51,554 bases of DNA from a bacterium (GTDB lineage: Bacteria; UBA10199; JAIBAG01). The stretch lies in contig JAIBAG010000018.1 in NCBI GenBank assembly GCA_019695305.1, forward strand, positions 1 to 51,554. Reading direction: 5' to 3'. Position 1 is the stretch's first letter. Each line of letters starts with the position of its first letter. Of this stretch, positions 7,581 through 17,758 are shown piece by piece. The notes under the pieces were generated by a model that worked only from the letters and a program-made list of their open reading frames with translations, was not told where the DNA came from and made no database searches. The translations under genes and the position numbers were made by a program.

Positions 7581-7718
7581 TTCTATATAATCTCTTGTAA
7601 TATCGAACACATGAAATTGATTGCCTTTTCTGGCCTGGATTGATAAGGAATCCCCTCATTCTTTGAACCCACAACAAACAGGTTCCGGGGATAAAAACCT
7701 CTAACGGAGAACTTATAT

Positions 7719-9035
7719 ATGTCACAAGCTGTACAAATCGCCCCGGCAAAGGGCAAATTGGGTATTTTACTGGTAGGTTTAGGTGCTGTAGCCACCACTT
7801 TTGTAGCCGGTGTAGAAGCCGCTAAAAAAGGAGTTCGTCATCCCATTGGTTCCCTCACTCAAATTGGCCGTATCCGTCTGGGTAAACGTACCGAAAACAA
7901 AAACCCTTTAGTAAAAGATTTTGTACCACTTGCCAGCTTAAACGACATTGTATATGGCGCCTGGGACCTTTTCCCCGATACCGGTTATGAAGCTGCCAGT
8001 AAGGCCGGCGTTATTCCTAAAGATTTACTCGATCAAATTAAAGATGATCTTTCGGCCATTAAGCCCATGCTTGCTGTGTACGATAAAAACTATGTTCGCA
8101 ACTTAAACGGCGAAAATATTAAAAAGGAAAAAAACAAATGGGATTTGGCCCAAGCTCTCATTCAAGAAATTGCCGACTTTAAAAAGAAAAATAATTGCGA
8201 CCGCATGCAAATGATTTGGTGCGGCTCCACCGAAGCGTACTGCACCGTTCAAAACGAGCACAAAAACATTGAAGCGTTTGAAAAAGGTTTAAAAGACAAC
8301 AGCGCCAACATTCCTCCCAGCCAAATTTACGCCTATGCTGCCATTAAAAGCGGTATTGGTTATGCCAACGGCGCGCCCAACTTAACCGCCGATTGCCCAG
8401 CTTTACTTCAACTGGCCGACCTGCATAAAGTACCTCTTTCAGGAAAAGATTTTAAAACCGGACAAACTCTCATGAAAACCATCTTGGCCCCCGGTTTACG
8501 CGCCCGCTTTTTAGGGATTGCCGGTTGGTATTCCACCAACATCTTGGGAAACCGTGACGGCGAAGTATTGGATGATCCCGCTAACTTTAAAACCAAAGAA
8601 GAATCAAAGTTAGGCGTATTGGATACCATTTTACAACCCCATCTTTACCCGGAACTTTACGAAAAGATGCACCACCAGGTACGCATCAACTACTACCCTC
8701 CTCGTGGCGATAATAAAGAAGGTTGGGACAATATTGATATTGTGGGCTGGCTTGGCATGCCCATGCAGATTAAAATCAACTTCTTATGCCGCGATTCTAT
8801 TTTGGCCGCTCCCTTGGTACTCGATCTTGTTCTTTTCATGGATCTAGCCCAACGCGCCGGCATGAAAGGCATCCAGGAATGGCTGTCATTCTACTATAAA
8901 TCACCCATGACCAAAGAAGGCCTGTATCCCGAGCACAATCTCTTTATCCAAGAAATGAAGCTTAAAAACACGCTACGTTACTTGATGGGTGAAGAACAAA
9001 TTACCCATTTGGGGCTTGATTACTATCAATCGTAA
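7719..9035 (+). CDS. ino1: Inositol-3-phosphate synthase
   Basis: Converts glucose 6-phosphate to 1L-myo-inositol 3-phosphate using NAD as an internal redox cofactor. The 438-aa length fits the prokaryotic form. Visible features are the N-terminal Rossmann nucleotide site (LGILLVGLGAVATTF) and family blocks such as CGSTEAYC and SGKDFKTGQTLMKT, the latter typical of the catalytic lysine region. A good Shine-Dalgarno (GGAGA) lies before the ATG. Inositol synthesis in a Gram-negative points to phosphatidylinositol-type lipids or inositol solutes. The neighbouring ABC1 kinase and the lipid-like operon downstream make the lipid route attractive, but this is inference. Confidence 0.95.
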   Translation: MSQAVQIAPAKGKLGILLVGLGAVATTFVAGVEAAKKGVRHPIGSLTQIGRIRLGKRTENKNPLVKDFVPLASLNDIVYGAWDLFPDTGYEAASKAGVIPKDLLDQIKDDLSAIKPMLAVYDKNYVRNLNGENIKKEKNKWDLAQALIQEIADFKKKNNCDRMQMIWCGSTEAYCTVQNEHKNIEAFEKGLKDNSANIPPSQIYAYAAIKSGIGYANGAPNLTADCPALLQLADLHKVPLSGKDFKTGQTLMKTILAPGLRARFLGIAGWYSTNILGNRDGEVLDDPANFKTKEESKLGVLDTILQPHLYPELYEKMHHQVRINYYPPRGDNKEGWDNIDIVGWLGMPMQIKINFLCRDSILAAPLVLDLVLFMDLAQRAGMKGIQEWLSFYYKSPMTKEGLYPEHNLFIQEMKLKNTLRYLMGEEQITHLGLDYYQS

Positions 9036-9074
9036 TCCTTGCCGCCCGCTCTATAATCCTCTACACTCTGCCGG

Positions 9075-10721
9075 ATGAATTCCGTAGCTCGTCTTATTCG
9101 TGCATACACCGTTACCTTTCGTATACTCTTGCGCTATTTGGGGCTCTTTTTTATTGCTAAATGGGTAAGCGAAGAAAGATCGTCACTCCTTTTTGACAAA
9201 GCCCATCGTAAAACAGCACAAATGATTGTGCGCAACATTCTTATTTTAAAAGGGCTCTACATTAAAATTGGCCAAACCTTGTCTATCATGACCAATTTCC
9301 TGCCCAGCTCTATTACTGACGAGCTAGAACAATTACAGGATGCCGTCCCTCCTCATCCCTTTGATGAAGTGAAAGAACGTTTTTTAGCCGATTTTAAAAA
9401 AGAACCGCTGGAACTTTTTAAACGCTTTGACGACACACCCATAGCCTCGGCCTCATTGGGACAAGTGCATGTGGCGTATTTAAATGACGGCACTAAACTC
9501 GCCGTTAAATTTCAGTACCCTAATATTGATGAGATTGTACGGTCCGATTTAAAAACACTCAAAAGAATTTTTGGTTTATTTAATTTTATTTTTTCGGGAT
9601 ATGGCATCAGCGAAATTTACCAGGAATGTTCCAAAATGATTTTGGAAGAACTCAATTACGAAGCCGAAGGCCGTAATTTGGAACGCATCCGCGATAATTT
9701 TAAGGGCGATGAGCGCTATTACTTTCCCAAAGTATATTGGGAACTGTCCTCGCAAAAAATACTCTCGGTGGAATTTGTAGAAGGCGTAAAAGTAACCGAT
9801 GTCACAAGCTTGGGCGAAAAAGGCATTTCACCGCACGATGTAGCCGTTTCGCTCATTCACTTTTACTGCAAACAAATTTTTGTGGATGGTGTTTATCATG
9901 CCGATCCGCATCCGGGAAATATCATTATTAAACCTCACAATGGATCTTACCAAATTGCCATGGTGGATTATGGAGCCACGGCAGGCATTTCGCCCACCAT
10001 GAAATCGGGAATGACGGTGTTTGTAGAAGGCTTGATTAAGAAAGATACAAAGACGCTCGCTATTGCGCTCAAGCAAATGGGTTTTGTTTCTAAAGGCGAT
10101 CACGAAGAAACCTTGGATAAAATTGTAGAATATTTTTACAGCAAAATTCGCGGTGTTAAAATCCAGGATTTTAGAAACATCAACATTGGTGATTTTCAGC
10201 ATTTAAACGATATCATTGAGCTTAAAAAAATGGATATCAGTTTAAAAGAATTAACACGCACCTTTCATGTGCCGCGCGAATGGATTCTTTTAGAAAGAAC
10301 GTTAATTTTGATGATGGGCTTAACCGCTCATTTAGACCCGCATTTAAACCCCATGGATATTGTGTTACCGTATGTAGAGGAACTGGTATTGGGCAAAGAT
10401 CAAAAGGTTTCTGACTTGATTGTTCAATCCACCAAAGAACTGTTAATTTCTTACATCAATTTACCAACAGAAATTAGCAAAGTTCTTAAAAAATTAAACG
10501 AGGGCAAACTCACCATTCAAACCAAAGTTCAAAAGCAACATACCGAGAGAATTTACCAGGGCATTCATCAGCTCATTTACACCCTTCTTCTTACTTCATC
10601 GGTATCCATGGGATATTTAATGAGCAAAGATGGAAACGCCGAATGGGCTTCGCATTTAAAAGTTGTGAGCACCATTTTAGCCACACTTTTATTTGTGAGC
10701 TTATTTAAAAATAGGCAATAA
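9075..10721 (+). CDS. ABC1/UbiB/AarF-family atypical protein kinase-like ATPase
   Basis: A 548-aa member of the ABC1 family. Diagnostic parts are the KxGQ-type motif (IKIGQTLSIM), the Ala-rich loop with ASLGQVHVA, the lysine strand AVKFQYP, the catalytic and metal-binding motif ADPHPGNI, and VDYGATAGIS. Two hydrophobic segments near the C-terminus (LIYTLLLTSSVSMGYL and STILATLLFVSLF) suggest membrane anchoring, as in UbiB. Family members support ubiquinone synthesis or lipid metabolism and homeostasis. No other ubi genes are near, so a quinone role is not shown. It starts 39 bp after ino1, probably in the same transcript. Confidence 0.92.
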   Translation: MNSVARLIRAYTVTFRILLRYLGLFFIAKWVSEERSSLLFDKAHRKTAQMIVRNILILKGLYIKIGQTLSIMTNFLPSSITDELEQLQDAVPPHPFDEVKERFLADFKKEPLELFKRFDDTPIASASLGQVHVAYLNDGTKLAVKFQYPNIDEIVRSDLKTLKRIFGLFNFIFSGYGISEIYQECSKMILEELNYEAEGRNLERIRDNFKGDERYYFPKVYWELSSQKILSVEFVEGVKVTDVTSLGEKGISPHDVAVSLIHFYCKQIFVDGVYHADPHPGNIIIKPHNGSYQIAMVDYGATAGISPTMKSGMTVFVEGLIKKDTKTLAIALKQMGFVSKGDHEETLDKIVEYFYSKIRGVKIQDFRNINIGDFQHLNDIIELKKMDISLKELTRTFHVPREWILLERTLILMMGLTAHLDPHLNPMDIVLPYVEELVLGKDQKVSDLIVQSTKELLISYINLPTEISKVLKKLNEGKLTIQTKVQKQHTERIYQGIHQLIYTLLLTSSVSMGYLMSKDGNAEWASHLKVVSTILATLLFVSLFKNRQ

Positions 10722-10780
10722 CCCCACTTTTATAATAACTTGACGTTTTTTATAATTTTCTTTAGCTTTCAAAAACATAG

Positions 10781-11467
10781 ATGAAAATCCACGCTACAAA
10801 CTGCCAAAAAATTTTAGCTTTATTTGCAGAACTAAGGTTGCTTTCTTTTTCTGAAACTCAAACCTTACTCGCTGTATTTGATACTTCTTTTCCTTTTAAA
10901 GAAGCACTTTCGAATGCTGATTCTATTCATGCCCATGTCCGTGTTGATAATACGCAATCCTTGCCCCAAACAGCTATTTTAGCTGCTGGCGCTCAAGTCC
11001 AAAATAAAATACAAGGATATGTAAAATATCTTTTTCCCGAAGGAATCAACATGATCTTTTCTTCCATTACGATTGCCGAAGATGATCTATTACTTACCCC
11101 AACAGGCTCGCGCCCTTTTTTGGATCATATAGGAATTGATATTCGCGATAAAAACGAGCTTTCACAAAAAATAATTGAAAAAGTTCCGCTGGATGCGATG
11201 AAACGCGGATGGAAACATGTACATCAAGGAGAAACAGAAAAACCTGTTTATTGCTGCCATGCAGAGGTGGCTCAAAAAGATTGGATTTATCCTCCTTTGT
11301 CGGACTCTTTATGGAAATATCCCATCGAATTTGCTTATGGCCCGCTCATTCTTCATGAAAATAAAATGGGTTGCGACTTACGCCCTATCAACCCAGACCA
11401 TAAGCTTTTGCTTAAAACAATAGAATGTGCAGAAGCAAAAAAAAACAACATCCCTTGTTGTAATTAA
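10781..11467 (+). CDS. Protein of unknown function, first gene of the radical SAM/Lgt-like operon
   Basis: A 228-aa soluble protein with no signal peptide or membrane segment. I do not recognise the family. A segment LDHIGIDIRD resembles the start of glyoxalase/VOC-type modules but is too little to assign. The C-terminus is Cys-rich (CAEAKKNNIPCCN), and CC also occurs in the middle (YCCHAE), so metal or Fe-S binding is possible. It is separated by only 4 bp from the next small gene and opens a run of six same-strand, touching genes, so it probably works with the ferritin-like and radical SAM proteins. The base composition here looks more AT-rich than that of the flanks. Confidence 0.72.
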   Translation: MKIHATNCQKILALFAELRLLSFSETQTLLAVFDTSFPFKEALSNADSIHAHVRVDNTQSLPQTAILAAGAQVQNKIQGYVKYLFPEGINMIFSSITIAEDDLLLTPTGSRPFLDHIGIDIRDKNELSQKIIEKVPLDAMKRGWKHVHQGETEKPVYCCHAEVAQKDWIYPPLSDSLWKYPIEFAYGPLILHENKMGCDLRPINPDHKLLLKTIECAEAKKNNIPCCN

Positions 11468-11471
11468 CATT

Positions 11472-11618
11472 ATGGATAACGAAATTAAATATCAACCACC
11501 TAAACCAAAATCCAATATAGGCAAAATCATTTTTAAAACGATATTCATTGGTTTATCAGTTGGCGTAGCTATCATAATCCTTTTTTTTGGTTTTCTAATT
11601 GCAATATGCAGTACGTAA
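11472..11618 (+). CDS. Small single-pass membrane protein
   Basis: 48 aa from the ATG at 11472, which lies 4 bp after the previous stop. A longer reading from 11427 would overlap that gene. The N-terminus is short, polar and Pro/Lys-rich (YQPPKPKSNIGK), followed by one strongly hydrophobic segment (about residues 18-45) ending in a Cys. The packing inside the operon and the clear membrane segment argue that it is real. It may anchor or regulate the neighbouring enzymes; the function is unknown. Confidence 0.55.
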   Translation: MDNEIKYQPPKPKSNIGKIIFKTIFIGLSVGVAIIILFFGFLIAICST

Positions 11619-11625
11619 ACAACTT

Positions 11626-12345
11626 ATGTCCTCTATCATTCACCGTATTAAAACTGGGTTTCACCGAGATCTTCTTCAAAATCCAGAAACACATGCCTGG
11701 GTCCTCAATCTTTACCGCGCCGGCGAAGGTTACCCACAGCATGCTAACGATTATTTCCCATACGAACATTTTGAAGATAAAAAAATAACCAACCAACTTA
11801 AAACCCATGCTCAGGAAGAAAAGAAACATGAGGCTTTCTTTACAAAATTAATCCGAGACATGGGGGAACCTCTTCTCGAATTTAAAGGACCGGATATTTT
11901 TAATTATGCTGTTAAAAACTTTACACCGATAAATTTTAAAATTGAAATAGCGGATTCTACAGAAACCAAACGTCTCAAGCTGGCGCATTTTTTGATTCAT
12001 GCCCATTTTTTAGAAAAAAGAGTTGCACAGTCTCTCCTATATCATCAGGAAGCCTGTAACCATGAGGGAAAACAAAAAATTGCCGAAACAATAAACCTTA
12101 TTTATCAAGATGAATTAAACCATGTAAAACTGACATGGAACCTAGCCACAGAACTTCTGGCTAACGCGGAACTGGAAACATTTAAAGCGTTACACCAAAA
12201 AGCTGAAGCCAAAGCAAACCTAAGTTTTTCCCAACATCAAGTACGTCAATTTATAAGACTTAAAACAAACGGCCTTAGCCGTTACCGCCGCGCCTGTTAT
12301 ATGGTTTATTCTCAACTCATGAATATGGCGGTACCTTATGCTTAA
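11626..12345 (+). CDS. Ferritin-like diiron protein
   Basis: 239 aa from the ATG at 11626; an earlier ATG at 11599 would overlap the small membrane protein. The predicted helices carry a full ferritin-superfamily diiron ligand set: E34, then E65-x-x-H68 (AQEEKKHEAFF), E130 (HFLEKRV) and E163-x-x-H166 (YQDELNHVKL). I infer an oxygen- or peroxide-reacting diiron enzyme, perhaps an oxidase, oxygenase or desaturase-type catalyst, rather than an iron-storage cage, because of the spacing and the enzyme neighbours. Its last 8 bp overlap the start of the radical SAM gene, which implies coupled translation and a joint role. Confidence 0.78.
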   Translation: MSSIIHRIKTGFHRDLLQNPETHAWVLNLYRAGEGYPQHANDYFPYEHFEDKKITNQLKTHAQEEKKHEAFFTKLIRDMGEPLLEFKGPDIFNYAVKNFTPINFKIEIADSTETKRLKLAHFLIHAHFLEKRVAQSLLYHQEACNHEGKQKIAETINLIYQDELNHVKLTWNLATELLANAELETFKALHQKAEAKANLSFSQHQVRQFIRLKTNGLSRYRRACYMVYSQLMNMAVPYA

Positions 12346-13834
12346 AACCCAAATTTTTAATAATACAAGCTTGGAAGAGACTTTAAATAAACTTCAATCC
12401 ACTTTACTTTCCAAAAATGCCGAACATCTTTTAAAGGAATTTAAATTACAACCTACAGCCAAATTACTTAAATCTACATTAAGCCTTTGTCCTAGTTGTC
12501 TTGACTATAGTGAAGCTGTGGTCTTTTCTTATTTAGGAAAAGTTTTTAAAAAAACGAAATGTGCAACACATGGCCTTAGCGAAAGCATTATTGAAAACGA
12601 TGAGAATTTTTACTTTCTTTCCAATAAAGACCGCTGGGGCCGTTGCTTTGATTGGAAAAATGTTTTTACAATCCCTCAAGGGGATTGTTGCAATGGAGGG
12701 AGCTGTACTACAGAAAAACAATCCGCGCCTCTATCCCCTTTTTACATTAATCAAACACAAAACAAAACCTGTACTGTACTTGTGGAAGTCACAAATGCAT
12801 GCAATCTGTCCTGTAGGGTATGCTATTCGCACGCTGAGGGAGACAAGATTTTACCCACACATCTTTTTAAAGAATATCTCAGCGAGCTTCTTAAAAGCAA
12901 AGGAACACTTGATTCTATACAACTAACAGGAGGCGAAGCCCTCCTTCATCCTCAATTTTGGGATTTATTAGATTGGTGCTATTCGCTTCCATCAATAAAA
13001 AAAATATATTTACCAACTAACGGAATTCTCCTGGCCCAATCTCAAGTTATTCAAAAGCTGATCCCCTATCGCCATAAAATGATGGTGTTGCTTCAGTTTG
13101 ACAGCTTACGAGCAGAGGCTAATCAGTCCATCCGCCAGGCTAGTCCTGTGGCCTTGCGACTACGTGTTATTGCCGAGTGCGCCAAAGCTCATATACCAAT
13201 GCAACTCACTATGACTATTACTCAAGACGTTAATGATGATGATATTGGATCAGTTATTGATGCTGGAATCAAGCACCGTAATATTAAAGTTGTGGCTTTT
13301 CAACCGGCCACCTATTCGGGCCGTTACCATTTAAACCCTTCCCCTGTAAACCGAACCACTCTTTCTGATGTTATTAAGGCAGTTCAGCTACAATCTAATC
13401 TCAAAGTTAAAAACAGTGATTTTATTCCTATACCATGTAGCCATCCTAATTGTGGTTGGATTACTCTCTTTATCCGTAAAGGATTTTGGATTAAAAATAT
13501 CCTTCCGTATGTTAATTTGGAACAAATCATCAACCAAGTTACTAACAAAACTCTTTTATCAACAGAGGAGTTAAAATCTGTTGTAGGCACACGCCATTCT
13601 GGACTCACCAAAAAAATAATGGGCTGGCTAGGCAAAAAAATAATTAAGTCTACCGATATTTTTACTCTGGCTATTAAGCCTTTTATGGACCGTTACACTT
13701 ATGATTTAGACCGTATCTCCAATTGTTGTCATCATACCCTGGACACTAAAGGCAAACTGGTTTCTTTTTGCGAATACAACGCTCTCCACAGACCTCAAGA
13801 CCCGTGGACACATTTGGATACCATCCCAGTATGA
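12338..13834 (+). CDS. Radical SAM enzyme resembling tetraether lipid synthase (Tes/MJ0619)
   Basis: A 498-aa protein with the radical SAM cluster motif C155-x3-C159-x2-C162 and the SAM-binding GGE at 198-200. Extra cysteine groups flank it: C51-x2-C54 with C75-x2-H78 (rubredoxin- or zinc-like), C117/C118/C123, C367-x4-C372 (CSHPNC), and C463/C464 with C478 (NCCHH...FCEYN). This arrangement of an N-terminal CPxC/KxCxxHG module plus CSHPxCG and CC..H/FCxYN ends is what I associate with the MJ0619 family. Its archaeal member Tes joins lipid tails in making membrane-spanning tetraethers. I infer C-C bond formation or a related step on lipid alkyl chains. Substrate and product are unknown; another MoaA-like role is possible. 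Its stop overlaps the next ATG (ATGA). Confidence 0.8.
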   Translation: MLKTQIFNNTSLEETLNKLQSTLLSKNAEHLLKEFKLQPTAKLLKSTLSLCPSCLDYSEAVVFSYLGKVFKKTKCATHGLSESIIENDENFYFLSNKDRWGRCFDWKNVFTIPQGDCCNGGSCTTEKQSAPLSPFYINQTQNKTCTVLVEVTNACNLSCRVCYSHAEGDKILPTHLFKEYLSELLKSKGTLDSIQLTGGEALLHPQFWDLLDWCYSLPSIKKIYLPTNGILLAQSQVIQKLIPYRHKMMVLLQFDSLRAEANQSIRQASPVALRLRVIAECAKAHIPMQLTMTITQDVNDDDIGSVIDAGIKHRNIKVVAFQPATYSGRYHLNPSPVNRTTLSDVIKAVQLQSNLKVKNSDFIPIPCSHPNCGWITLFIRKGFWIKNILPYVNLEQIINQVTNKTLLSTEELKSVVGTRHSGLTKKIMGWLGKKIIKSTDIFTLAIKPFMDRYTYDLDRISNCCHHTLDTKGKLVSFCEYNALHRPQDPWTHLDTIPV

Positions 13835-14208
13835 TAAAAAACGCGCTCATCATTTTTTCTATTTTACCTTTTGCATATTTTGCATGGAAGGATACTATTT
13901 TTCATCTTAAAGGTAGAGCTGTAACAAGAACAGAGCATGTTATTCATTTTATATTAGGATTTATTTTAGCCACTTTGTTTGTTAGTTCCTATCGTGGTCA
14001 TTGGGGGAAATGGCTTATTGCCTCTTTCATCTTGTTTATAGTGGGCTCTTTGGATGAATTTATTTTTCATAAAGAGCTACCCCTGCAGGAATCAGACTGG
14101 CATGCTAAAGAGCACTGGTCTTTACTCTTATATATGATTACCTGTATAGGCATGATGGCTTGGGAATTCCAGCCAAACTGGTTTCACTTTTTAAGGCATG
14201 GTTTGTAA
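13831..14208 (+). CDS. Small polytopic membrane protein
   Basis: 125 aa from the ATG at 13831, whose ATGA overlaps the stop of the radical SAM gene, a sign of translational coupling. It has about four hydrophobic segments and a His/Glu-rich stretch near the third loop (DEFIFHKELPLQESDWHAKEHW) that could bind metal. I do not recognise the family. It sits between the radical SAM and Lgt-like genes, so a membrane subunit of the same lipid-processing system is the simplest inference. Confidence 0.7.
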   Translation: MIKNALIIFSILPFAYFAWKDTIFHLKGRAVTRTEHVIHFILGFILATLFVSSYRGHWGKWLIASFILFIVGSLDEFIFHKELPLQESDWHAKEHWSLLLYMITCIGMMAWEFQPNWFHFLRHGL

Positions 14209-14933
14209 TGCAACAAAAACTCATTGTTCTCACTTATTTTATCCCCGTTTTAACAGCACTAGCATTAAGTCTTTTTTTCCCCACCGCGCGTCATTATACA
14301 GACCCCGCCGAAAAGAAAAAATATTACATCCTTCTAGTTGTAACCTTATGCGGCGCAGTTATTGGGGGAAAACTTTCATTATGGATGGGAGATTATTTTT
14401 GGCCTATTCATCCGCTAAGCGTTCACGAACTCATTTATTCCGGCCGTTCTATTACCGGAGCTTTAATTGTAGGGCACTTAGCATCAGCCTGCGCTAAACC
14501 TTTGCTAAATTATAAAATGCCCCCCAACAACAGACTGGCTATGATTATCCCTTTTTCTATAGCGCAAGGGCGCGTAGGCTGTTGGCTTTCGGGATGCTGC
14601 CTAGGACTTCCCTATCAAGGCTTTTGGACCATGAGCTATCAAGATAACATACCCCGCTTTCCAATTGCACAATTTGAAATTATTTTTCAACTTAGCGTGG
14701 GAATTTTCTTTATCTACTGTGTTAAAAAAAATATTTTAGAGGGGCGTCTTTTTTCGCTGTATCTCTTTTTGTATGGAATTTTTCGTTTTCTATCAGAACC
14801 ATTACGGGCAACCCCAAAAATAGAGGGCGTAATCTCGGTATACCAAATATTGGCTTTAGTCATGATTGCTATTGGCGGCCTAGAGCTTTACTGGTGCTCG
14901 CGTCAAACTCTTCATAAGATACAACCCCTTTAA
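14208..14933 (+). CDS. Lgt-like (prolipoprotein diacylglyceryl transferase family) membrane protein
   Basis: 241 aa from the ATG at 14208, overlapping the previous stop by one base (TAATG). Seven or so membrane segments follow the Lgt pattern: SGRSITGALIVG in place of the Lgt HGGL block, GRVGCWLSGCCLG in place of GRLGNFINGE, PRFPIAQFE in place of RHPSQLYE, and RFLSEPLR near the end. The catalytic His of Lgt (E. coli H103) and Asn146 are not conserved, whereas the Arg of GRxG is (R122). I infer a relative of Lgt that handles phosphatidylglycerol-like lipid but probably does not lipidate lipoproteins. It ends the six-gene operon. Confidence 0.8.
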   Translation: MQQKLIVLTYFIPVLTALALSLFFPTARHYTDPAEKKKYYILLVVTLCGAVIGGKLSLWMGDYFWPIHPLSVHELIYSGRSITGALIVGHLASACAKPLLNYKMPPNNRLAMIIPFSIAQGRVGCWLSGCCLGLPYQGFWTMSYQDNIPRFPIAQFEIIFQLSVGIFFIYCVKKNILEGRLFSLYLFLYGIFRFLSEPLRATPKIEGVISVYQILALVMIAIGGLELYWCSRQTLHKIQPL

Positions 14934-15739
14934 GACCTTTTAACAAATGGGTACGCTAGCTGTTTCAAAAAACTATCTGGCACTTCCTCTGGAACTCCAA
15001 GTGCAAGCGGAGCTTTATTATTAGGAAGATAATAAGTCCCAAAAAGAAAATCATAAAAAGAGAAAAGCCCTGCAAAATTGCAATTCCGTTGATTTGAGTT
15101 GGAAAAAGCGTGGTGCCATCGATGAAAATCGGGTGTAGCCAAAAAGAATCGTAACGGCCCCAAATTACATTTGAGGTTGGCATGCAAGAAAAGAGTATGA
15201 AGTAAAAAAATAGGTCCTAAGGCAAAAAAAACACTGATCTTAAAGCCCAGCAAAAGAATCACCACACCAATCATAGTATTATCAAGCACATCATCAACCG
15301 GATGCAAACGAGCAGCGGCCAGCCAATCGAGATTTTTAGGACTGTGATGAATAAGGTGAAATTTCCACAAAAAATTCTTGTGGCGCAAACGATGGCTCCA
15401 ATACCCAATAAAATCGGCAATCAGCAACGCTTCTACCACTTGAAGAATAAAGCTCTGGTTATAAAGATGAAAAATCGAGATTTTTTCCAACAGTTTTATT
15501 AAGGGAATAGCAGGTTCAACATAAAGGATATGTATAGATAAAAAACCAATCAGTCCAAAAGTGGCCACACGGGTGAAACTTCCCGTCACTAGAGGCGTTA
15601 AAAGCCAATAAAACCAGTCTAGTCTACGTTCCTTGTTAAAAACAGGAACAAGGGAAGCTACTGGGTACTTTAGTTGAAGCTGATGTATTAAAAAGCCTAG
15701 TATACAAAAACCGCTATAGACAATAAAAAGAGATTCCAT
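14930..15739 (-). CDS. Sterol desaturase / fatty acid hydroxylase superfamily membrane protein
   Basis: 269 aa with several membrane segments and the three histidine clusters of this diiron superfamily: HRLRH in YWSHRLRHKN, HLIHH, and HRWHH in DFHRWHHAF, plus ARLHPVDD typical of the family. Such enzymes hydroxylate or desaturate lipid tails, sterols or ether lipids. It converges with the Lgt-like gene and overlaps it by 4 bp. It is thus not in that operon, but with the radical SAM enzyme and the thioesterase next door it adds to a lipid-modification neighbourhood. The substrate cannot be read from sequence. Confidence 0.88.
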   Translation of the reverse strand: MESLFIVYSGFCILGFLIHQLQLKYPVASLVPVFNKERRLDWFYWLLTPLVTGSFTRVATFGLIGFLSIHILYVEPAIPLIKLLEKISIFHLYNQSFILQVVEALLIADFIGYWSHRLRHKNFLWKFHLIHHSPKNLDWLAAARLHPVDDVLDNTMIGVVILLLGFKISVFFALGPIFLLHTLFLHANLKCNLGPLRFFLATPDFHRWHHAFSNSNQRNCNFAGLFSFYDFLFGTYYLPNNKAPLALGVPEEVPDSFLKQLAYPFVKRS

Positions 15740-17121: not shown

Positions 17122-17601
17122 CTAGGAACGACCTTCTTTAATGACGAGTAACTCACGTAAAACAGCTAAATCTTTTGGCCGCGACATGCATTTTTTGGCA
17201 GCAATAAGTGCATCCAAACCCAAAACTTGTACCGGCAAACCAAACACTTCATAGGCTTCGGCATCTTTTTTGGTAGCCTCAAACCCTCCTACGCCGCTAA
17301 TCTCCCCTAAAATATCCAAAATTCCCAAGTCGGTTGTGAGATACAAATTTTTAATATTTTTTAAATCGGAAGGATGCTCCAAAAAAGAAAGTTTTTGTGG
17401 AGTCATGCGATGCTTAGGATGATAAGGGGCTAAAGCTTGACGCAATTTTTCCAAATTTGATTCAGCCATACTGACGCAGATATCGACATCATGGGTAATT
17501 TGTCCCACACCATGTAAAACAGCAGCAAATCCACCTACCACAACATAGTCGATATTTGCACCGTTAAGTACTGTTAGCAGCTCTTTAAATCTGCTCTCCA
17601 T
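17122..17601 (-). CDS. Nucleotidyltransferase-fold protein
   Basis: 159 aa. The N-terminal half shows the polymerase-beta-like nucleotidyltransferase signature, VVVGGFAAVLHG followed by THDVDICV (Gly-Gly then Asp-x-Asp, here DVDI). This is the type found in AbiEii/MenT-like and other stand-alone bacterial NTases. It overlaps by 17 bp the end of a 57-aa upstream gene; such pairs behave as two-gene modules of toxin-antitoxin or regulatory type in many genomes. Whether this one is toxic is not shown. It converges with the TonB-like gene, 4 bp away. Confidence 0.78.
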   Translation of the reverse strand: MESRFKELLTVLNGANIDYVVVGGFAAVLHGVGQITHDVDICVSMAESNLEKLRQALAPYHPKHRMTPQKLSFLEHPSDLKNIKNLYLTTDLGILDILGEISGVGGFEATKKDAEAYEVFGLPVQVLGLDALIAAKKCMSRPKDLAVLRELLVIKEGRS

Positions 17602-17758
17602 ATTTTTTTGCTTTTTTAAGCTCCTGTATTAAATCGAGTGCCGCCTCTAAACGAAGCACTCTTTCGGTAGGAGTCTGAGATAAATTATCTTCAATAATAC
17701 TCAAATCAATTCCATAATTAACGGCGTCTTGTTGGATGGGCGTGAGCTTTTTATCCAT
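17585..17758 (-). CDS. Short helical protein paired with the nucleotidyltransferase
   Basis: A 57-aa reading frame from an ATG at 17758 to a TAA at 17585, found by reading the gap. It begins MDKKLTPIQQDAVNYGIDLS and contains NLSQTPTERVLRLEAALDLI, a pattern I associate with small proteins encoded just before stand-alone nucleotidyltransferases. It overlaps the NTase start by 17 bp, so translation is probably coupled. An antitoxin or partner role is inference. Confidence 0.65.
   Translation of the reverse strand: MDKKLTPIQQDAVNYGIDLSIIEDNLSQTPTERVLRLEAALDLIQELKKAKKYGEQI

Follow-up and report, generated by a model that had tools for sequence, protein, structure and literature searches.

A conserved bacterial gene cluster around a Tes-like radical SAM enzyme, with a proposed role in the modification of membrane-lipid tails

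In the 51,554-nucleotide contig JAIBAG010000018.1 of a bacterium of the lineage UBA10199 (assembly GCA_019695305.1; the whole contig is hereafter called the window), six same-strand open reading frames (ORFs), named A to F, touch or overlap between positions 10781 and 14933. Together with the convergent gene G, they form a real, conserved and, as far as our literature search shows, previously undescribed cluster, which is built on a new subfamily of Tes-like radical S-adenosylmethionine (SAM) enzymes. We propose that B, C, D, F and G, to which E is accessory, constitute a dedicated and horizontally mobile pathway by which a membrane glycerolipid is modified in its alkyl tails, and we give this full statement a probability of about 0.5; that the cluster modifies lipid tails in some manner is likely. 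The lipid-tail role is proposed because the best solved relative of D is the lipid enzyme Tes, the gene set recurs in shuffled order, C co-occurs with D, C-like domains are fused to desaturases and G belongs to the family PF04116. The carriers, some of them uncultured bacteria and some myxobacteria with a cholesterol pathway, probably make an uncharacterised lipid of the membrane or a lipid-anchored miniprotein. The question of which enzymes link or reshape inert lipid tails in bacteria lies behind the climate proxies based on branched glycerol dialkyl glycerol tetraethers (brGDGT) and behind the 'lipid divide', and the present locus offers a compact and coherent gene set around a Tes-superfamily enzyme devoid of the labile Met of Tes.

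The Tes-like enzyme and the distribution of the cluster

Tes acts by coupling lipid tails at their sp3 carbons. Gene D (12338–13834, forward strand) encodes a protein of 498 aa with the Pfam domains Radical_SAM (PF04055, 49.7 bits) and Zn_ribbon_HMPTM (PF23545, 31 bits), and its best match among solved structures is Tes, or GDGT-MAS (MJ0619; PDB 7TOL), with an E-value of 1.8e-34. Tes combines a rubredoxin motif CX2CX20CX2H, the SAM cluster, a [4Fe-4S] cluster held near the N-terminus by CX3CX2C and a His, and a C-terminal cluster that includes the labile Met439, its product arising via a bond between a lipid carbon and a cluster sulfur (PMC9433317). In D, the rubredoxin motif has the identical spacing (C51, C54, C75, H78), the radical SAM motif CX3CX2C is present (C155, C159, C162) and three cysteines, C372, C463 and C478, align with the three of the Tes C-terminal cluster; Tes residue numbers were derived from the offset of a 20-residue tag in the 7TOL chain. 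All these residues are kept in the eight members of the D group, the exception being one rubredoxin His, replaced by Asp in genome G410. Among the NCBIfam models, D matches that of TrsS (NF045646) over its full length with the highest score, 206.9 bits for a cut-off of 490, and that of Tes (NF045702) with 179.9 bits for a cut-off of 450; neither model gave a match in the Thermotoga maritima control.

A tree built from 70 sequences splits Tes, together with its closer bacterial relatives, from the rest with an ultrafast bootstrap (UFBoot) of 100, and in it the D sequences form their own clade (bootstrap 100), which joins a Tes-like clade of 28 members at 83. An Lgt-like gene lies within 1.5 kb in at least 19 of these 28 members, a lower bound as many loci have little flank. 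The pairing of Tes-like and Lgt-like genes that the earlier note had pointed to is thereby recovered outside the cluster, with Lgt-like genes accompanying Tes-like enzymes repeatedly and in at least two clades, and our literature search found nothing on such a pair.

Relatives of the cluster were sought by a protein search over genome contigs and by a profile search covering 379 genomes of the phylum to which locus L019 belongs, taken as Myxococcota. The same gene set is carried by loci L018 and L019 in the protein search, and related clusters were found in 8 of the 379 genomes, seven of them (G060, G061, G129, G240, G390, G410 and G416) having a strong D homologue and the eighth, G062, a partial one. 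In the window's own phylum, D was found only in the window's genome, among 46 genomes. The gene order is E-F-B-C-D-G in L018, G-E-F-B-C-D in L019, F-B-C-D-G in L071 and L073 and F-B-C-D in L074; in G129, D is alone on one contig and F-B-C are together on another. C scores above 300 bits in exactly the same 7 of 361 genomes that hold a full-length D above 600 bits. Since C is adjacent to D in six of these seven complete cases and on a separate contig in G129, the independent weight of this co-occurrence rests on G129. The G062 locus (L020, or L070) was left out of the complete cases, because the N-terminus of G joins the middle of D directly (7880–8678 of L020), as in a decayed cluster with its middle deleted or a misassembly.

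Gene G, which had been described as a hydroxylase-family neighbour of the operon, adjoins D, C or E in five other loci (L018, L019, L071, L073 and L072) and recurs as part of the cluster, beyond the six genes first delimited. Conversely, no ino1, UbiB-like or thioesterase gene was found in the other clusters, and the three are excluded as members; the earlier note had mentioned the thioesterase as a neighbour and the upstream ino1 as a possible supplier of headgroups. The window's D groups with those of L018 and L019 (bootstrap 82), inside a clade from the other phylum. The GC content of the 10781–14933 region is 38.2%, compared with 41.5% in the flanks, and a value this low is reached by 4.4% of windows of equal size, so that the AT-richness previously noticed is real but modest. 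This nesting, the patchy distribution and the low GC suggest that the cluster may have spread by horizontal transfer.

The partner proteins

The protein encoded by C (11626–12345, forward strand, 239 aa) carries the ligands E34, E65xxH68, E130 and E163xxH166, invariant in an alignment of seven sequences, and its AlphaFold model is a confident helical bundle with a predicted local distance difference test (pLDDT) score of 85.3. The complete E/ExxH/E/ExxH diiron set reported for C is thus conserved, and its presence on a helical bundle makes C a ferritin-like diiron protein. Distant C-like domains form the C-terminal halves of proteins in genomes G379 and G116, of which the N-terminal halves are membrane fatty acid desaturases (PF00487, 91.5 and 95.3 bits). 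These fusions are the strongest evidence we have that C could act on lipid tails. Such fusions of a membrane fatty acid desaturase with a C-like ferritin domain lie in L179/L185 (8051–9793) and L180 (574–2274).

Gene G (14930–15739, reverse strand) is convergent with F, with a 4-nt overlap, and belongs to the fatty acid hydroxylase superfamily, which includes OlsE and the sterol desaturases: it has the His boxes and matches PF04116 with 93.9 bits for a gathering threshold of 31. Its score against the OlsE equivalog model, 128.5 bits, is below the cut-off of 475. Near the cluster of L018, a lipoxygenase-like protein, named by eye, is encoded at 7625–9115, and a second PF04116 protein stands beside it at 9114–10103. 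Gene E (13831–14208, forward strand, 125 aa) occurs in the window, L018 and L019 and was not found elsewhere. The description of its product as a four-helix membrane protein is borne out by the AlphaFold model (four long helices, mean pLDDT 87.9), and an alignment of the three sequences shows D21, H25, E35, H36, H39, D75, E76, H80, E87, D89, H91 and H95 to be invariant.

Gene F (14208–14933, forward strand, 241 aa) encodes an Lgt-like protein of the GR[ST]xxG[GA] / GRxGCxxxGCCxG type. It shares the PF01790 fold with Lgt (84.5 bits for a gathering threshold of 24.9), its only solved structural match is Lgt 5AZB, and equivalents of R143, R239, E243 and Y26 of the Escherichia coli enzyme are kept. 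It differs from Lgt by its score against the equivalog model TIGR00544 (51 bits for a cut-off of 118.9), by Cys in place of N146 and E151, by Thr at the position of His103 (Val or Thr in the homologues) and by its linkage to Tes-like genes. The window's genome has two other Lgt-family genes, and the best of them (213.9 bits) has Tyr at the His103 position. The earlier note had stressed the lost catalytic His: the family assignment and the His replacement hold, but as the best-scoring Lgt of the same genome is also without this His, its loss is not diagnostic and was dropped as a special mark of F, which is an Lgt paralogue.

The membrane miniprotein encoded by B (11472–11618, forward strand, 48 aa) has one transmembrane segment and ends with ...FFGFLIAICST. 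Equivalents are found in seven other loci, in all those where the interval is intact, between F and C or just before C, with lengths of 48 to about 130 aa and, in some, extra hydrophobic segments. Every one of them has a Cys 2–3 residues from the C-terminus, the ends across the loci being ...LIAICST, ...MFALCGA, ...IVAVCGSH, ...LIFLTCSGH (twice), ...LIAFTCTR, ...LLLLTCMGH and, in G129, ...LLAAACGGCRR; in comparison, a Cys is present within the last four residues of 6.4% of the window ORFs. As the N-termini of B are charged or proline-rich, the topology is suggested to be N-terminus in and Cys out, on the side where Lgt acts.

Proposed pathway and rival explanations

In the scheme that we infer for the substrate, the reaction type, the order of the steps and the pairing of F with B, the enzyme D would abstract hydrogen from a lipid tail at an unactivated carbon, and its C-terminal [4Fe-4S] cluster would hold or couple the tail radical, forming a C-C or C-S bond. 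The ferritin-like diiron protein C and the membrane diiron protein G could add an O2-dependent hydroxylation or desaturation. F would handle a diacylglyceryl unit, most likely moving it to a thiol, for which the Cys at the outer end of the B membrane helix is the best candidate acceptor. C-C coupling by D is a tentative proposal, and an action of F on B a somewhat doubtful one. A combined version, in which F would attach a diacylglyceryl group to B at its C-terminal Cys and the bound or partner lipid tails would then be oxidised or coupled by D, together with C and G, to give a miniprotein-anchored and possibly membrane-spanning lipid, is a long shot, although such a product, if true, would be a new kind of lipid-protein conjugate. 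The earlier note had proposed a bacterial pathway for unusual membrane lipids; the lipid-directed Tes-superfamily enzyme and the conserved unit of Lgt-like and diiron genes are in agreement with this view, and the coupled or membrane-spanning lipids that it named are possible products. If the two carriers with complete genomes are cultured strains, as appears, the function can be tested directly.

Several observations weigh against this lipid-tail pathway. In all eight members of the D group, Lys447 replaces the labile Met439 of Tes; compared with Tes, Cys367 is an additional invariant cysteine; and the CX3CX2C and His of the N-terminal cluster are replaced by the invariant C117, C118, C123 (CCx4C) and C145. 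Because of the replaced Met and the extra Cys367, the Tes mechanism may not transfer to D. The top Foldseek matches of C are ferritin-like (ribonucleotide reductase R2, ferritins, COQ7), none of them significant (E ≥ 0.14), and the structure search with E gave no match. In L074 and L075, no G was found close to D. The earlier note had named, as evidence against itself, homologous operons that lack the Lgt-like and diiron genes; these were encountered only in part: an adjacent F is missing in L072, with the order B-C-D-G (genome G390), and D is alone in G129, yet F and C are together on another contig there.

The nature of D bears on two other explanations. If D were a genuine bacterial Tes or Mss and produced membrane-spanning lipids, this would explain its kinship with Tes at the level of the fold and the conservation of three of the four C-terminal cluster ligands; for Mss, compared here by description only, a tail-coupling role has been proposed from its Tes-like catalytic architecture (PMC13274423). 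However, the score below the Tes cut-off, the change of Met439 to Lys and the tree split of 100 from Tes and its nearer bacterial relatives rule out orthology with Tes, D is encoded with diiron, Lgt-like, hydroxylase and B genes, and the window's genome holds elsewhere a nearer Tes relative (334–335 bits) in which Met439 is kept; we consider this explanation improbable. The Tes-like assignment of the earlier note hence applies to the superfamily and to the best solved structure, and not to Tes itself. A non-lipid system resembling TrsS, or a pterin-type methylation of small molecules, is in line with the top NCBIfam score and with the Pfam name of the zinc ribbon, which refers to a pterin methyltransferase. 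Identity with TrsS is nevertheless ruled out by the tree and by a score under half of the cut-off, D has no selenocysteine, the remaining genes of the set are of lipid type and the pterin annotation of MJ0619 was not reproduced (PMC9433317), which makes such a system very unlikely.

Two further explanations give the other genes more weight. In a maturation of proteins or peptides, F would lipidate the C-terminal Cys of B, or of other proteins, and D, C and G would act on the peptide or on the lipid that anchors it, giving a lipidated membrane miniprotein and not a free lipid. The presence of B in every locus with an intact interval, always with its near-terminal Cys, and the charged N-terminus that would place this Cys on the side of Lgt are favourable to it, as is the proposal that the cysteines of MYXO-CTERM proteins are lipidated by a yet-unidentified Lgt-like enzyme (PMC11980579). 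B, however, mostly lacks the small residue of a lipobox at position -1 (six loci have I, L, V or T there, and in G129 a G precedes the last Cys), it is poorly conserved beyond the Cys and hydrophobicity, unlike the peptide substrate of a radical SAM enzyme, and D is nearest to Tes and not to the SPASM peptide maturases, so that we regard maturation as unlikely. The last explanation, a tailoring or conjugation of sterols or other triterpenoids, would fit the membership of G in a family that includes sterol desaturases. It is also the one favoured, against a role in glycerolipids, by the neighbourhood in G240 and G416, where an ERG2 homologue (PF04622, 247.4 bits) stands directly beside it, followed by a sterol gene cluster with a cyclase gene and with P450-like, GGR-like and Rieske-like genes recognised by eye, of the same character as the published cholesterol cluster of Sandaracinus amylolyticus (PMC12004948). 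Cyclases of PF13243 occur in five of the eight Myxococcota carriers and in 78 of the 361 sampled genomes, a comparison that ignores relatedness. Nonetheless, G240 and G416 are close relatives, so their neighbourhood counts once; no PF13243 cyclase was found in G061, G062 and G129; the single one of the window's genome is of the squalene-hopene type, with 439 bits, whereas those of the genomes with sterol clusters score about 190; and the pockets of Tes-like enzymes accommodate alkyl chains. A general link to sterols was therefore rejected, the neighbourhood being real in two close genomes only, and sterol tailoring was kept as an alternative of low probability.

Other Tes-like loci and neighbouring genes

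The nearer Tes relative of the window's genome, on contig 24 (L030, 7115–9783), is paired with a CDP-alcohol phosphatidyltransferase gene; the pair is also present in L028 and L029, thus repeated in the class, and this Tes relative may itself be a membrane-lipid enzyme. More generally, Tes-like genes elsewhere adjoin CDP-alcohol phosphatidyltransferase or acyl-chain-synthesis-like genes. The second, widespread Tes-like clade, nearest to the TrsS model, lies beside Lgt-like genes with a GKTVVGG motif (L022, L023, L067, L068, L077, L087, L088, L090 and others), the Tes-like and Lgt-like pair being present even in L077, an outlier branch. Three tandem Tes-like radical SAM genes are found in L024 (1–8425) and L083 (5279–11559), both with short-chain dehydrogenase/reductase (SDR) genes and the former also with ketosynthase-like and dehydratase-like genes named by eye; these loci look like acyl-chain biosynthesis clusters. 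On contig 3 of the window's genome (L114, 6850–11327), a squalene-hopene-type cyclase gene is convergent with a resistance-nodulation-division (RND)-type exporter-like gene, which suggests that this organism may make hopanoids.

In the window, the six-gene operon and the domain calls for B to F given by the earlier note are upheld by the coordinates and spacing read from the sequence, with gaps of 4 nt between A and B and 7 nt between B and C, and overlaps at the C/D, D/E and E/F junctions. Gene A (10781–11467, forward strand) encodes a protein of 228 aa with 7 Cys, ending with ...IPCCN, which gave no Pfam or NCBIfam match above cut-off; no homologue was found in 44 relatives nor in the other fetched cluster loci, and A is probably accessory to the cluster. 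The L018 cluster opens with an ORF resembling iron-sulfur (Fe-S) biogenesis proteins (1203–1547; A-type carrier-like, a weak match) that also ends in CC; it was considered as a relative of A and discarded, the two having no similarity. Before A, a promoter-like site TTTATA-16-TATAAT (10729–10756, forward strand) matches the consensus at 10 of 12 positions and is weak, such sites being fewer than in shuffled sequences. Elsewhere in the window, a nucleotidyltransferase-like gene and a small partner (17122–17758) resemble a module of the toxin-antitoxin type.

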